DNA of 64,000 bases from positions 372,001 through 436,000 of the forward strand of contig NZ_AP018725.1 of NCBI RefSeq assembly GCF_003967195.1. The letters run 5' to 3'. The notes below the pieces were generated by a model that saw nothing but the letters and a program-made list of their open reading frames with translations, was not told the DNA's origin and made no database searches. This DNA comes from Sulfuriflexus mobilis (GTDB lineage Bacteria > Pseudomonadota > Gammaproteobacteria > AKS1). This document shows positions 15,633 through 39,222 of this stretch, piece after piece (the stretch's first letter is position 1; each line of letters starts with the position of its first letter). Made by a program: the position numbers and the translations under genes.

Positions 15633-16055
15633 ATGAAAGCGCGAGTAAAATGGGTTGAGGGTGCCACCTTCGTCGGCGAGTCGGGCAGTGGTCACGCGGT
15701 GGTCATGGACGGGCCACCGGAACACGGTGGACGTGACCTGGGGATCCGCCCCATGGAGATGCTCCTGCTCGGCATGGGTGGTTGTACCGCCTTTGATGTC
15801 CTGCATATTCTCAAAAAGGCCCGCCAACCCATTACGGACTGCGTGGTGGAACTCAATGCCGAACGTGCCGATGAAGACCCGAAGGTCTTTACGAAAATCC
15901 ATGCCCACTTCCGTATCAAGGGTGCCGGTCTGAAAGAAGACCGAGTTAAACGCGCTGTGGAGCTGTCGGCCGAAAAGTACTGCTCGGCCTCGATTATGCT
16001 TGGCGCCATGGCCGAGATTACACATGACTATGTGATCGAGGAGGAGGTGGTATGA
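15633..16055 (+). CDS. OsmC/Ohr-family protein
   Basis: A 140-residue OsmC-family protein, a group of thiol-dependent peroxidases and related proteins. It has the usual mid-protein cysteine in LLGMGGCTAFDVLHIL and a second cysteine in EKYCSASIMLG, the pair used for peroxide reduction, and it lacks Ohr-specific features. A GAGGAG site precedes the ATG by 6 bases. The stop overlaps the start of the VOC gene by four bases, so the two form a small operon. Confidence 0.88.
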   Translation: MKARVKWVEGATFVGESGSGHAVVMDGPPEHGGRDLGIRPMEMLLLGMGGCTAFDVLHILKKARQPITDCVVELNAERADEDPKVFTKIHAHFRIKGAGLKEDRVKRAVELSAEKYCSASIMLGAMAEITHDYVIEEEVV

Positions 16056-16475: not shown

Positions 16476-17285
16476 ATGGCGAAGAAAAGAATCAAGCTGC
16501 ATGGTTTTAATAACCTGACCAAGACCCTAAGTTTCAACATCTATGATATTGCCTATACCTCAAGCAAGGCCCAGCAGCAGGAATACATTGAATATATTGA
16601 TGAGGAATACAATGCCAGGCGGTTGACCCATATCCTTACTGATGTGAGTAATATCATCGGTGCAAATATCCTCAATATTGCCCGGCAAGATTATGACCCG
16701 CAGGGCGCCAGTGTCACCATGCTGATTTCGGAAGAGGCGGTCGCTGCCGGCGAACTGGATAACCGCGAAACGCCGGGACCCTTGCCCGATGCAGTGGTCG
16801 GTCACCTGGATAAGAGTCACATCACGGTCCATACCTATCCCGAGTACCATCCGGAAAACGGGATCAGTACTTTCCGCGCCGATATCGACGTCTCTACCTG
16901 TGGGCGTATTTCACCGCTGAAGGCCCTTAACTATCTGGTGCACAGTTTTGAATCGGATATCGTCATCATGGATTACCGCGTGCGTGGTTTTACCCGTAAT
17001 GAAAAAGGCGGCAAGTTGTTTATTGATCACAATATCAATTCCATCCAGAACTTCGTTTCACGTGATATCAAAAACGCCTATGAAATGATCGACGTGAACG
17101 TTTACCAGGAAAATATTTTCCATACCAAGATGATGCTGAAAAAATTTGATATTAACAATTATCTTTTTGGTATCAATGATGACGACCTGACCGGTAAGGA
17201 AGAAGCGGTAGTTACCGACAATCTGCGTCGTGAGATGGCCGAAATCTTTTATGGCCAGAATATGAAAAAGGGCATGAAGTTCTAG
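16476..17285 (+). CDS. speD: S-adenosylmethionine decarboxylase, E. coli type
   Basis: A 269-residue proenzyme that decarboxylates SAM to supply aminopropyl groups for spermidine. The self-cleavage site Lys-Ser in [13 protein letters not shown] (serine about residue 110) generates the pyruvoyl cofactor. The catalytic cysteine segment [17 protein letters not shown] follows. Length matches the long proteobacterial class rather than the short Bacillus/Thermotoga class. No speE is adjacent. The end overlaps the convergent coq7 stop by four bases. Confidence 0.95.
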
Positions 17286-17926
17286 ATGCGGTAGGCGGTA
17301 CGGGTCATAAGCTTTGAGGTGAGGCGCATCGCCTGTTTGATCGGCGTCGGCAGCTCGGCGCCACCGGCCTCCAGCGCCACGGTGGCGTGGCGGCCCTCGT
17401 CTATCTTCATTTGCTCGAGGATTGCCCGGCTTTTCTCGTCTTGCTCGGGTAACTGGGCAAGGTGCTCATCCAGGTGACGTACCACCTGCTGTTCGGTTTC
17501 GGCGACAAAACCCAGGCTCCACTTATCACCGGCCAGACCGGCGGCGGCCCCCATCGCAAACGACGCGCCATACCAGAATGGATTCAGCAAACTCTTGTGA
17601 CTGTGTAATTCACCCAGGCGCTGCTCACACCAGGCCAGGTGATCATTTTCTTCCTGGGCGGCGCGCTGCATACTTGTACGGACATGATCGAGTTTTGCTG
17701 TCAGTGCCTGCCCCTGATAAAGGGCCTGGGCACAGACCTCGCCAACATGGTTGATACGCATCAGGCCGGCGACGTGCTGGCGCTCTGTCTCATCTAAAGC
17801 AACCTCGGCACAGCCCTGGCTCGGATTTTCCCGTTCGGTGACCTGTGGCCGTCCGAATACGGTGCGCAGGGCCTGGTCCACGTTCATGGCCAGCTGGTCG
17901 AGGGAACTATATGTGCGTGGTTTCAT
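17282..17926 (-). CDS. coq7: 3-demethoxyubiquinol 3-hydroxylase Coq7
   Basis: A 214-residue di-iron hydroxylase of the last ring hydroxylation in ubiquinone synthesis. The four-helix ferritin-like core shows the iron ligands in [48 protein letters not shown] and [15 protein letters not shown]. The ATG at 17926 is taken because upstream initiation would need a TTG at 17962 overlapping the preceding gene. It lies 32 bases downstream of the GlcF-like gene. With ubiH and ubiI near 32-34 kb it shows ubiquinone-based respiration. Confidence 0.93.
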
Positions 17927-17958
17927 AAAGCTAGACGATACAAGAGACGGGCCGAAAG

Positions 17959-19191
17959 TCAATCGACTATCAGTTGCTGTGCAAGGAGTTCAACGGGGTG
18001 TAATACCGTTGTCTCAAGTCCGGCACGTTTCAGGCTGGTCTGCAGATTCATCGCACAACCTATATTGCTGGTGACCACGATATCGGCATTAAGCCTTCGG
18101 ATTTGTTGAACAGTGGCATCGGCGAGAGTATCCGCGAGTGCTTCATGAGCTGCCTCGAACATGTAACTGCCGGCGGCGCCACAACAACTGTTGGTTGTTT
18201 GTTCGAGAGACAGCAGCGTGGCCTGTGGGATCCGCGCCAATAGGGTGGCCACGGCAGCCTGTTGACGCATGACGTTGCGCAGGGAACACGGGCTATGAAT
18301 GACGATGCGTTTCTCCAATGGACGAATCTGTATGTCTTTCGGCCAATCGAGAGACTGGAGATAATGACTGATGTCGGTAATGGCCAGGGCGAAGGCCCCG
18401 GCATCAGGATCTGCCTGTCGCGCATAATCCTTCAGGGTTGCCGCACAGCCACTGGCGAGGGTCAGGATAGGTGCGTATGTACTCGCTGCAAAGGCTTCGA
18501 TGTTGATCGCGGCCAGTCTATTCGCTTGCACGGCACGGCCCTGATGTTGTGACAAGCCGCCACAGCAGCCCTGTTGTGCAGGGACCTCTACGCTTACACC
18601 CAGCCGGTTCAGTAGCTGCACGCTGCTTTCCAGCAGGCGGTTACCAAACAGTGTCTGTGTACAGCCCTTGAAGAGTTTCACCGTGCCGGTTTCTGATGTG
18701 GCCGGATAGTGTGCCTGCACCGGCTTGAGTGGGCCGATGGTGGGCAGGCTGCGCGCCAGTCGCCCTGTCTGACCGGGGAGCAGGGCGGCAAGGCCCTTCA
18801 TGCCGCTGAGCTGGGCGAGGCGTAACCAGCGATGCCAGCGGCGTGTCTGCACGGGGTTCTCGAGACGAGCAACCAGTGGGTTGATGGCCGTTTTTTGTTC
18901 CGGCTCAAGGGTCTCTCGCAGGCCGTCCATGAAATAACCGAACTTCACACCAGAGGGGCAGATGCGTTCACACTGTCGACAGAGCAGACAGTTATCGATG
19001 TGTTGCCGGATAGGTGAATCCACTTTCAGCTCGCCGCGTAACAGCGCCTTGCCTAGCACCAGGCGGCCACGTGGTGATTCGTTTTCATCCTGCGCGTGGA
19101 TATAGGTGGGACACTGTGGCAGACACATGCCACACATCACACATTTATCACTTTCGGTGATCAGGGCGGAGTTACGAGGTTCTGTCGACAA
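17959..19191 (-). CDS. glcF: GlcF-like Fe-S oxidoreductase subunit
   Basis: A 410-residue iron-sulfur protein. Two ferredoxin clusters bind through [12 protein letters not shown] (about residue 18) and [12 protein letters not shown] (about 68). Two cysteine-rich CCG domains follow ([10 protein letters not shown]...[12 protein letters not shown] and HSPCSLRN...[12 protein letters not shown]), as in glycolate oxidase GlcF and heterodisulfide-reductase-like proteins. Glycolate use would fit gph in this window, but no GlcD or GlcE flavin subunits are adjacent, so lactate or another 2-hydroxy acid is possible. The only start in frame is TTG at 19191 with no clear ribosome site. Confidence 0.85.
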
Positions 19192-19279: not shown

Positions 19280-19588
19280 ATGTCTTACTACCGTTACCAC
19301 GTTTTCTTTTGCACCAATCAACGTAGCGATGGCCGTGAATGTTGTCAGGACTGTAATGCCCAGGCCATGCGCGACTACGCCAAGGCACAGTGCAAGGCCC
19401 TGGGGCTCAATGGGCCGCGCAAGGTCAGGATCAATTCCGCTGGTTGCCTGGATCGCTGTAGCGAAGGCCCGGTGATGGTGATCTACCCGGAAGGCACCTG
19501 GTACAGCTATGTTGATCACGAAGATATTGATGAAATTCTGGACAAACACCTGCAACAGGGGGAAATTGTCAAACGCCTGCAGATTTAG
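19280..19588 (+). CDS. Small thioredoxin-fold 2Fe-2S ferredoxin-like protein
   Basis: A 102-residue protein of the NuoE-like thioredoxin-fold ferredoxin type. The cysteine pattern is C-x10-11-C-C-x-x-C near the N-terminus (FFCTNQRSDGRECCQDC) and SAGCLDRCSEGP later, giving ligands for one 2Fe-2S cluster. The closing segment VMVIYPEGTWYSYVDHEDIDEIL is typical of this family. The ATG at 19280 starts the domain exactly. It is divergent from the GlcF-like gene and may serve as an electron carrier, but its partner is unknown. Confidence 0.85.
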   Translation: MSYYRYHVFFCTNQRSDGRECCQDCNAQAMRDYAKAQCKALGLNGPRKVRINSAGCLDRCSEGPVMVIYPEGTWYSYVDHEDIDEILDKHLQQGEIVKRLQI

Positions 19589-19762
19589 GCTTTTTTTATT
19601 TATTTATCCACGAATTTAGCGCAAGAAATATTAATCAATGTAATCAATTAGTTATTAAATATTACATGAACTGAGTTAAACCAGCGCGATGGCGAATATA
19701 CCTATTACTATACATTAATAATAATATATAACTAATTGTAAAATAAGACAAACAACTAAACG

Positions 19763-19791
19763 TTGACAAAGAAAACCACATCGCACATCCT
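19763..19791 (+). promoter_or_regulatory. Possible promoter of first sRNA candidate
   Basis: TTGACA at 19763-19768 matches the -35 consensus fully. At 17 bases' spacing CATCCT (19786-19791) is a poor -10 but keeps the second A and last T. A start near 19797-19799 would begin at the outer stem of the predicted RNA. Confidence 0.4.
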
Positions 19792-19796
19792 TTAAG

Positions 19797-19905
19797 TCCA
19801 CCAGCGAATACCCCTCTGTTGGGGACAAACACTCTAGCATTCCTCCACGAATAGTAGAGTTCCAGGTGGTACAGGCGCGATTCTTCACCGGATCGCGCCT
19901 TTTTT
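19797..19905 (+). ncRNA. Candidate sRNA 1 with CCTCC in an apical loop
   Basis: About 108 bases ending in an intrinsic terminator (19873-19905). Predicted structure: CCACC near 19799 pairs with GGTGG at 19866-19870, enclosing a CCCC/GGGG hairpin and a hairpin with arms ACTCTA and TAGAGT plus inner ATT/AAT, whose loop displays CCTCC. Such loops can pair with Shine-Dalgarno sequences. No coding frame of note. The boundaries are inferred from the promoter and terminator only. Confidence 0.5.
19873..19905 (+). terminator. Intrinsic terminator of sRNA candidate 1
   Basis: Arms AGGCGCGAT (19873-19881) and ATCGCGCCT (19892-19900) form a perfect 9-bp GC-rich stem followed by six T residues. No protein gene ends just upstream, which implies a non-coding transcript. 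Confidence 0.85.
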
Positions 19906-19992
19906 ATTGCCTAATAACCCATTAGATAACAATTGCTTATGCCGCGCCTGGCAGATAGCCGTAAGATTATCGCTACAGCCTGTTAATTAGAG

Positions 19993-20021
19993 TTGACTAA
20001 TATACTAATGCTTAGTAGAAT
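19993..20021 (+). promoter_or_regulatory. Sigma-70 promoter of second sRNA candidate
   Basis: TTGACT (19993-19998), a 17-base spacer, and TAGAAT (20016-20021) each match consensus at five of six positions. The expected start is near 20028, and an intrinsic terminator follows about 115 bases later. Confidence 0.75.
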
Positions 20022-20027
20022 TTATTC

Positions 20028-20143
20028 CACTTCAGATTGTTGTGCCTACCTCCTCCAGTGCACGCAACCTGAAACGATCCTCCTCCACCTCCCAAATGGT
20101 GGCTTATAAGGCGCGGCAGCCCAATATGCCGCGCCTTTTTTTT
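20028..20143 (+). ncRNA. Candidate sRNA 2 with repeated CCTCCTCC motifs
   Basis: About 116 bases from a good promoter to a strong terminator. A 5' hairpin (outer arms TTCAG and CTGAA, inner arms GTGC and GCAC) exposes CCTCCTCC in its loop. A single-stranded linker repeats CCTCCTCC. A small CCACC/GGTGG hairpin then carries TCCC in its loop, before the terminator. This layout is like C-rich-loop regulatory RNAs of proteobacteria such as sX13 or the CcsR group, which act through anti-Shine-Dalgarno pairing. Homology to those was not tested. Confidence 0.65.
20108..20143 (+). terminator. Intrinsic terminator of sRNA candidate 2
   Basis: Arms 20108-20118 and 20127-20137 form an 11-bp stem (AAGGCGCGGCA and its complement) around an 8-base loop, with eight T residues at 20136-20143. 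Confidence 0.9.
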
Positions 20144-20460
20144 GCCTCGAACCATCGGAGATGGTTGAGGTACGGATAATGACCAGAACCTGCGGAGCAG
20201 GTGCAGGAAATCCCTAATGAAGCTCGTAGAGATTCTTGGGGGAAGCCCACAGGTAGCTCATAGAAGCTTTTCAAGCTTCATCATGAGTACCCTACTCCTC
20301 CGGAGTCAGGGCATCTGTGAGTGGTGAATCAGGCAGCCTAAGAAGCCTGCATGAACGTAGAAGCTACAAGCCCCACGGATATCGGAGATGGGCAGGATCC
20401 CAATAAAGAAGCCTAAAAGGCTCTTATGAACGCCTCGACCCTATAAGTACGGTGAGTTAG
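20144..20460. repeat. Array of hairpin repeats before rplM
   Basis: Starts immediately after the sRNA terminator. A reverse-orientation B hairpin lies at 20145-20170, followed by a degenerate A hairpin. A forward pair follows: A at 20257-20287 and B at 20290-20311. A third, less regular module (about 20317-20390, GAGTGGTGAA ... CATCGGAGATGGG-like) follows. The 20251-20390 segment is closely similar to 23738-23865 downstream of the porin gene and partly to 23578-23660. Confidence 0.8.
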
Positions 20461-20619
20461 GAATATAAGCTTCTAGGGCAAAAGCTACAGGAGGAGGGGC
20501 TGTGAGGCCCCATGAGGAGACCAAAAAGAGGCCGTTTTCCTCTTGTATCCTGCCGCCGACTCGAGTAATATTCCGCCTCTTTGCAAGACACTACCCTATT
20601 TACGTGGAGCAATACTGAA

Positions 20620-21048
20620 ATGAAAACGTTCAGTGCAAAACCGGCTGAAGTGAAGCGCGACTGGTTTGTCATCGATGCCGAGGGCAAGACCCTGGGCCGT
20701 ATGGCGACCGAAATCGCCCGCCGCCTGCGCGGTAAGCATAAAGCTATTTATACACCGCACGTGGATACCGGCGACTACATCGTGGTCATCAATGCCGAGA
20801 AGGTCCGTGTGACAGGAAGAAAGTCTACCGACAAGCTGTATCATCATCATACAGGTTACATTGGTGGTCTGAAGACAATCAGCTTCGACAAGCTGTTAAA
20901 GAAGGCTCCAGAGCGCATTATCGAAACCGCAGTGAAAGGTATGCTGCCGAAGAATGCACTGGGCCGTGCAATGTTCCGCAAGCTGAAGGTTTATGCGGGC
21001 GGTCAACACCAGCATGCGGCGCAACAGCCAATGCCGCTGGAACTCTAA
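20620..21048 (+). CDS. rplM: 50S ribosomal protein L13
   Basis: A 142-residue large-subunit protein, the same length as E. coli L13. It begins [20 protein letters not shown] and contains the L13 signature [15 protein letters not shown] near the C-terminus. The ATG at 20620 has GGAG about 10 bases upstream; the frame is open further upstream but the family start is clear. It precedes rpsI by 19 bases, the standard L13-S9 operon. Confidence 0.98.
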
Positions 21049-28983: not shown

Positions 28984-29174
28984 AAGACATCCTCCGCCTG
29001 TGCCGTTGCGTTCCGTTGTCCTTGAACCAGTGGTTCAAGTGGGGAAAGGGGACAGGACATCAGGCTTTCCGCCAGCAGCGGACTTGCACACAATCCTGAC
29101 ACAGTTCTCCCCGGGAGGTAATACTAGGCTCAAGAAAATACCGGGTCTGCTATCGAACACTGCAGAGGATGCCT
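28984..29174 (-). ncRNA. ssrS: 6S RNA
   Basis: A regulatory RNA that binds sigma-70 RNA polymerase in stationary phase by mimicking an open promoter. It lies between zapA and fau, its conserved place. The ends pair (CATCCTC at the 5' end near 29171 with GAGGATG at the 3' end near 28989). The internal hairpin ACTTGAACCACTGGTTCAAG matches the E. coli 6S hairpin near the same point, followed by a GC-rich closing strand. Length about 190 bases agrees with E. coli (184). The exact ends are inferred. Confidence 0.88.
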
Positions 29175-38942: not shown

Positions 38943-39003
38943 TCCGGTATTGGGAGTCGATCCCTGACCCTGATATAGGGTATAGTCCGCTTGCAACAAA
39001 TGC

Positions 39004-39180
39004 TCTTGTGGGAGAGGTTTTGTGTCTGTGCAGAGAACCACAGGCAGGAAACGCCGAAGGCGCAACATCCACCCGGAAACGCTCAGGCAAAAGGACCGCA
39101 GGAGAGACGTTGTCTCTGGAGAGCGATCGTGTCGATCCACCGAAGGGGCTCAAGCTCTCAGGTTCAGGACAGAGGGGTGG
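39004..39180 (+). promoter_or_regulatory. Tandem glycine riboswitch upstream of gcvT
   Basis: Two glycine aptamers in series. The first spans about 39004-39108 (GGAGAGG, ACGCCGAAGGCGCAA, CTCAGGCAAAAGGACCGCAG). The second spans about 39109-39180 (GGAGAGCG, CACCGAAGGGGC, CTCAGGTTCAGGACAGAGGG). The last P1 strand overlaps the left arm of a strong terminator. This layout is typical of an ON switch that lets gcv genes be expressed when glycine is plentiful. A TATAGT -10 box lies at 38981-38986. Confidence 0.92.
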
Positions 39181-39222
39181 CGAATAACCATATCAGTAAG
39201 GTTATTCGCCACCCTTTTTTTT
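39175..39222 (+). terminator. Riboswitch expression-platform terminator
   Basis: Perfect 15-bp stem (39175-39189 with 39200-39214) and eight T residues. Its 5' arm shares GGGG with the closing helix of aptamer 2, so glycine binding would oppose terminator formation. Confidence 0.92.

Follow-up and report, generated by a model that had tools for sequence, protein, structure and literature searches.

The described RNAs closest to the pair of loci reported here belong to Rfam family RF02278 (Betaproteobacteria toxic sRNA), whose kin include the double-hairpin RNAs ncS03, ncS05, ncS27 and ncS62 of Burkholderia, bdhR1, and S17 of Bordetella pertussis. The Burkholderia relatives are free RNAs of 57–92 nt, occur in three to five copies, as an instance of anti-Shine-Dalgarno (aSD) families being multicopy elsewhere, and carry CU-rich regions complementary to ribosome binding sites; in B. 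cenocepacia, overexpression of ncS27 slows growth and its silencing speeds growth (PMC5688073). S17 is Hfq-dependent; RNase E processing yields a short form whose first bases are the conserved CU-rich segment, and the RNA represses a sigma-54 activator directly (PMC11722255). Growth inhibition and pairing with ribosome binding sites have been reported for ncS27 and S17, and S17S is scarcely toxic in E. coli (PMC5688073, PMC11722255). Beyond this family, NfeR1 of Sinorhizobium (alpha-r14, RF02344) silences ntrB through aSD motifs and was reported to be Hfq-independent (PMC10746234), and the C-rich loops of Xanthomonas sX13 act on G-rich sites near starts (PMC3771888). The Neisseria siblings NmsRA/B (NgncR_162/163) form an sRNA pair regulating many metabolic mRNAs (PMC5362039, PMC9973317).

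In the 64-kb stretch of Sulfuriflexus mobilis DNA analysed here (the window), two short units follow one another on the forward strand between a ferredoxin gene and rplM, within the gene order osmC, speD, coq7, a glcF-like gene, ferredoxin, units 1 and 2, rplM and rpsI. With a probability of about 0.78, we read them as two tandem, independently transcribed, trans-acting aSD sRNAs, of which unit 2 would be an orthologue of the RF02278 family and unit 1 its sibling; the more general assignment, tandem sRNA genes of the aSD kind, is well supported. The features concerned are as follows:

15633–16055, + strand: osmC (Pfam)
16476–17285, + strand: speD-type AdoMet decarboxylase gene (Pfam)
17282–17962, − strand: coq7 (Pfam)
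19280–19588, + strand: 2Fe-2S (thioredoxin-like) ferredoxin gene (weak PF01257 match, 22.4 bits against a cut-off of 24.8; tblastn neighbours)
19763–19791, + strand: putative promoter of unit 1, TTGACA-N17-CATCCT (strong −35, weak −10)
19797–19906, + strand: unit 1, candidate sRNA (fold, conservation in the genus, family-model score)
19993–20021, + strand: predicted promoter of unit 2, TTGACT-N17-TAGAAT (promoter scan and pattern count)
20028–20143, + strand: unit 2, candidate sRNA (fold, congeners, class-wide homologues)
20077–20140, + strand: conserved core of unit 2, CCTCCTCCACCTCC-loop-GGTGG plus terminator (the portion common to RF02278)
20540–20575, + strand: separate predicted promoter of rplM, TTGTAT-N17-TAATATTCCGCC (3' of the unit 2 terminator; the arrangement recurs in most homologous loci)
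20620–21048, + strand: rplM, ribosomal protein L13 (PF00572; conserved downstream neighbour)

The sequence and coordinates given by the first-pass annotation were confirmed. As it had reported, each unit ends in a strong intrinsic terminator with a T-run (hairpins at 19873–19900 and 20108–20137, 11 pairs each, the second followed by eight T). The near-consensus promoter that it assigned to unit 2 also stood up, the pattern occurring once in the 64-kb window against 0.09 occurrences expected. Unit 1 has a perfect −35 (TTGACA, 19763–19768), whose end lies about 29 bases before the 5' end of the unit, and a −10 (CATCCT, 19786–19791) so weak that the default promoter scan missed the promoter. In the congeners this region (19763–19795 in the window) reads TTGACA-N13-CCCCGATG or TTGACA-N13-CCCCGATGC and also resembles a heat-shock sigma-32 promoter. 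The statement that no protein gene lies upstream was mistaken: the ferredoxin gene is on the same strand, its stop about 200 bp before the start of unit 1, and that stop is overlapped by an intrinsic-terminator-like site (19575–19590).

Downstream of unit 2, the T-run is followed by GCC (TTTTTTTTGCC, 20136–20145), as it is in many unrelated homologous loci, including some without the repeat that follows here. This repeat (20145–20560; TCGAACCATCGGAGATGGTTGAGGTACTCATAATGAAGCCCG...GGATTCTATGAG) has 49 genomic matches, with more in congeners, and many copies start immediately 3' of an intrinsic terminator's T-run. Its stems covary (CCATC-GGA-GATGG and CCATT-GGA-AATGG); it is possibly a REP/MITE family, and the genome holds two Y1 transposases. 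We considered whether the block might be a GGAG-loop "sponge" or an RNA of the CsrA type, with complementarity to the CCUCC loops, and rejected this; its loop varies between GGA and GGAG with the stem, and because it belongs to an interspersed repeat family, we do not treat it as part of the finding.

Folding energies, computed for the RNA alone with proteins ignored, set both units well apart from dinucleotide shuffles (z of −5.2 for unit 1 and −6.5 for unit 2; no shuffle as good). Unit 1 is predicted to form a closing stem, CCACC/GGTGG, around a small hairpin (CCCC/GGGG) and a second hairpin, CTCTA-GCATTCCTCCACGAATAG-TAGAG, with the apical loop CCTCCA(C), followed by the terminator; this fold recurs in each of the four congeneric species, with the apical CCUCC about 80% unpaired. 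In unit 2, hairpin 1 has the loop CCTACCTCCTCCAG, the linker between hairpins 1 and 2 is GATCCTCCT (containing CCTCCT), and hairpin 2, CCACC-TCCCAAAT-GGTGG, is followed by the terminator. In the prediction, the first loop exposes CCUCCUCC, the linker again CCUCCUCC, and the second loop UCCC; fewer sites are exposed in the congeners. A lack of conservation of the CCTCC loops among close relatives, which the first-pass annotation had named as counting against its reading, was looked for and did not occur, except at hairpin 1 of unit 2: exposure recurs for the loop of unit 1 and for the linker and second loop of unit 2, but the hairpin-1 loop of unit 2 is peculiar to the window species, the other three having its CCUCC mostly paired, which leaves the linker and hairpin 2 as the conserved sites of display. 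Accessible CCUCC is thus conserved across relatives in the predicted folds, as expected of an aSD trans-acting sRNA. The motif by itself is not over-represented (CTCCTCC is found 7 times in the 64-kb window, with 6.6 expected), and the case consequently rests on conservation, structure and synteny.

In the collection searched, the family and the order contain a single genus with four sequenced species. Each of the three congeners has both units, their order unchanged, between ferredoxin and rplM (one site spans a contig break, and another contig ends before rplM), bearing out the synteny of the terminator pair upstream of rplM that the first-pass annotation had suggested checking. Across the four species, CATTCCTCCACGAAT is invariant in unit 1, as is its −35 TTGACA, the −10 being GATGCT in the other three; in unit 2 CCTCCTCCACCTCC is invariant.

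Unit 2 extends far beyond the genus. A covariance model of its core (R1) matched 139 of a sample of 369 genomes of the class at E values up to 0.01, which are rough (short calibration) and come from one scan of a genome collection with MAG gaps. Directly downstream of the sRNA stands rplM in 21 of the best 26 non-congeneric loci, most such rplM-linked loci having ferredoxin or coq7/osmC upstream. Carriers include Candidatus Thiodiazotropha taylori, Granulosicoccaceae, Thiotrichaceae and lucinid-clam symbionts; an sRNA upstream of rplM was looked for and not found in Pseudomonas, Aeromonas, Photobacterium and Methylophaga. The homologues typically begin with a first hairpin that varies and often has a C-rich loop, and continue with ACTCCTCCATCCTCCTTTGGTGG and a GCGCGG terminator. 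A promoter of the form TTGACA/T-N17-GAAAAT/TAxxAT is equally placed in many families, typically as TTGACA-N17-GAAAAT with a TATATTA box just 5' of the −10, and rplM has its own TTGTAT-N17-TAxTAT type promoter further downstream. Among 36 sequences, double (compensatory) changes occur at all eight pairs of the terminator helix, and hairpin 2 and the CUCCUCC linker are near invariant; at one hairpin-2 pair, C-G, U-G and U-A all occur, and at four loci (L075, L076, L079, L144) the pairing of hairpin 2 is shifted in register. For this hairpin, then, covariation support is weak and sequence support strong. Unit 2, a distant relative of the Burkholderia "toxic" RNAs, occupies a corresponding chromosomal position in many other Proteobacteria and is therefore probably an ancient regulator of translation, not something peculiar to this site. 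Tandem sRNA duplicates were seen in other families (L094:1421–1553; G179:C27:1128–1333), so that tandem copies seem to have originated on more than one occasion. At L084, L087 and L202, a copy of the sRNA adjoins osmC with no rplM within reach, and at L084 it also lies beside a glycine riboswitch pair.

How unit 2 relates to RF02278 is a matter of degree. It scores 27.6 bits (E = 3e-3) and its counterparts in the congeners 32–33 bits, below the gathering threshold of 50 bits, and it is the top RF02278 match in each of the four genus genomes. At gathering, no Rfam model matched unit 2 or the sRNA at any of the first 18 homologous loci tested, and the window yielded only 6S RNA (28987–29171, − strand, 92.5 bits), tRNA and glycine riboswitches. 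True members in the class and phylum samples score 66–74 bits in an osmC-sRNA-rplM-rpsI setting and 54–67 bits in an ilvA/osmC/coq7 setting, and intermediate scores of 40–49 bits occur at rplM in other families. With these members, unit 2 has in common the neighbourhood (osmC, coq7, rplM), the double-hairpin plan of a CUCCUCC 5' segment, a CCACC-loop-GGUGG hairpin with a CU-rich loop, and a terminator, the core CTCCTCCAYC-loop-GGTGG carried by its homologues too, and the occurrence of several copies per genome. It differs in having an additional hairpin at the 5' end that carries an aSD loop of its own, in standing in tandem with unit 1, and in belonging to an order of a single genus, apart from the families whose members pass the threshold. 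Given the same place, the same orientation to rplM, the same core and the intermediate scores, orthology is the simplest account, and the preferred reading of unit 2 is as a diverged orthologue, at an ancestral rplM-linked site, of the RF02278 family; since the threshold is not reached, it is not a member as curated but a homologous branch.

The families that the first-pass annotation had named, sX13 and CcsR, did not come through the Rfam search: sX13 gave no match at E values up to 10, and CcsR1 (RF02791; gathering 65.3) gave 13 bits at E = 4.4, which is chance. Matches of JPX, asX2, suhB, HOTTIP and EF3314 to the region had E > 2 and were dismissed. The best Rfam kin are alpha-r14 and RF02278, both below gathering, and synteny favours RF02278. 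Over the whole of unit 2, alpha-r14 scores 31.7 bits (E = 7e-4 in a 1-kb search; gathering 58.8), with two upstream hairpins whose CCUCCUCC motifs are unpaired and a terminator in common. However, alpha-r14 is Alphaproteobacterial and carries CCUCCUCCC in loops, whereas the motif of unit 2 lies partly in a linker, and three hairpins each with an unpaired CCUCCUCCC are not found in unit 2. sX13 likewise has several C-rich loops, but these are three 4C/5C loops where the motifs here are CCUCC, and sX13 differs further in its polA linkage and Hfq independence. The Rhodobacter RNAs CcsR1–4 have CCUCCUCC-type loops, and their genes are arranged in tandem. The Neisseria pair can be set beside units 1 and 2 by description, as a pair of sibling sRNAs, although NmsRA and NmsRB are nearly identical to each other and units 1 and 2 have diverged. 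Overall, kinship to RF02278/alpha-r14 is better supported than kinship to sX13 or CcsR.

Units 1 and 2 share a plan and little primary sequence, as had been noted, though a broad family model built from unit 2 homologues (R3) does recognise unit 1. In the whole genome, R3 places the unit 2 core first (59.8 bits, E = 5.7e-15), a locus at 191.4 kb second (38.1 bits) and unit 1 third (34.5 bits, E = 6e-7); in the window, the next-best match after the units has only 15 bits. The additional locus is a candidate sRNA on the minus strand at 191423–191484 (L259:1924–1985; G000:C1), about 200 kb from the units and adjoining an rdgB-like gene, with a stem ACCGACATGC/GCATGTCGG, a C-rich 20-base loop TTCCCCCCCTCTCCCCCCCT and a terminator, kept in the four species of the genus. 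All three loci are present in 4 of 4 species. The model of unit 1 itself has strong matches in four congeners only, with none comparable in the 365 other genomes of the class sample; three weak matches of 30–32 bits outside the genus were judged to be chance. The link of unit 1 to the family runs through one short module and the terminator, and because the shared part is short, it is likely but not certain that unit 1 is a genus-restricted diverged sibling of unit 2, probably a duplicate, and likewise likely but not certain that the 191-kb RNA is another diverged sibling.

Other explanations have to be set against this reading. Sub-gathering scores, with the alpha-r14 and RF02278 models each matching weakly, are what convergence might leave behind if any aSD sRNA tended to evolve CUCCUCC and a GC-rich terminator, and short C-rich motifs on a terminator scaffold could converge, as in several unrelated aSD sRNA families. 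We nevertheless hold convergence to be improbable, since the position and orientation of unit 2 between osmC/coq7/fdx and rplM repeat those of RF02278 members above gathering, the scores at rplM in other families bridge the gap, and the core is common to both. The more radical view that there are no RNA genes at all, only two double terminators or DNA palindromes with CCTCC by chance, can appeal to the unremarkable frequency of CTCCTCC in the window; it is rendered highly improbable by the conservation of the promoters, by a core outside the terminator that is better conserved than the flanking sequence, and by class-wide synteny.

Were unit 2 a cis-acting leader or attenuator of rplM-rpsI, starting near 20028, with pausing or termination at 20143 and signal-dependent read-through into rplM, then its retention upstream of rplM across many families and the strong terminators, typical of attenuating leaders, would follow; but rplM has its own conserved promoter 3' of the unit 2 terminator, some 400 bp of interspersed repeats separate the two in the window and in the congeners, the RF02278 members of one family lie at ilvA-osmC-coq7 with rplM absent from the 3 kb examined, and the Burkholderia relatives are free RNAs, all of which makes attenuation quite improbable. 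Processing of unit 1, and perhaps of unit 2, from the 3' UTR of the ferredoxin mRNA with no initiation of its own would suit the co-directional gene ending about 200 bp upstream and the weak −10 of unit 1. This origin also has a low probability in our view, for in four species an invariant TTGACA is suitably spaced from the 5' closing stem, the ferredoxin stop bears its own terminator-like site, and unit 2 has a clear promoter.

On the reading of tandem trans-acting aSD sRNAs, each unit would be transcribed from its own promoter into an RNA of about 110 nt ending at its terminator, with copies of the 16S aSD core (CCUCC/CUCCUCC) displayed in unpaired loops or a linker and held by a rigid framework of hairpins. 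The CUCCUCC segments would pair with the Shine-Dalgarno regions of many mRNAs, and this pairing would block binding of the 30S subunit, probably with the help of Hfq; the RNAs may thereby limit growth. It is from the literature on RF02278, NfeR1 and sX13, together with the presence of hfq in the genome, that we infer trans-acting blockers of 30S binding at many Shine-Dalgarno sites. For unit 2, duplex energies fall below −14 kcal/mol for 34% of start regions in the window, whose starts are guessed, versus 15% of random stretches; we claim no target because the start sites are guessed. As the Neisseria siblings act on gcv genes (PMC13104608), the glycine riboswitch locus of the window (tandem aptamers at 38999–39182) is a place to look for targets.

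A wider reading, which we offer as speculation and consider unlikely as a whole, is that an aSD sRNA kept by rplM across Gammaproteobacteria (in the wide GTDB sense), its dose tied to ribosome supply and its consensus loop CCUCCUUU copying the 16S anti-SD core, may act as a growth-coupled brake or tuner of translation initiation, of which the "toxic" Burkholderia RNAs would be one branch and which would have been duplicated in this genus (units 1 and 2 and the 191-kb copy). On our main reading, an Rfam entry labelled as Betaproteobacteria-specific would become a single branch within a far more ancient family tied to a ribosomal protein locus, many of whose homologues fall below the threshold of any Rfam model. 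Clear orthologues in hosts unrelated to Burkholderia would provide material for studying whether growth rate is set by general anti-SD sRNAs, and units 1 and 2 would form a natural pair for asking what diverges after the duplication of an aSD RNA.
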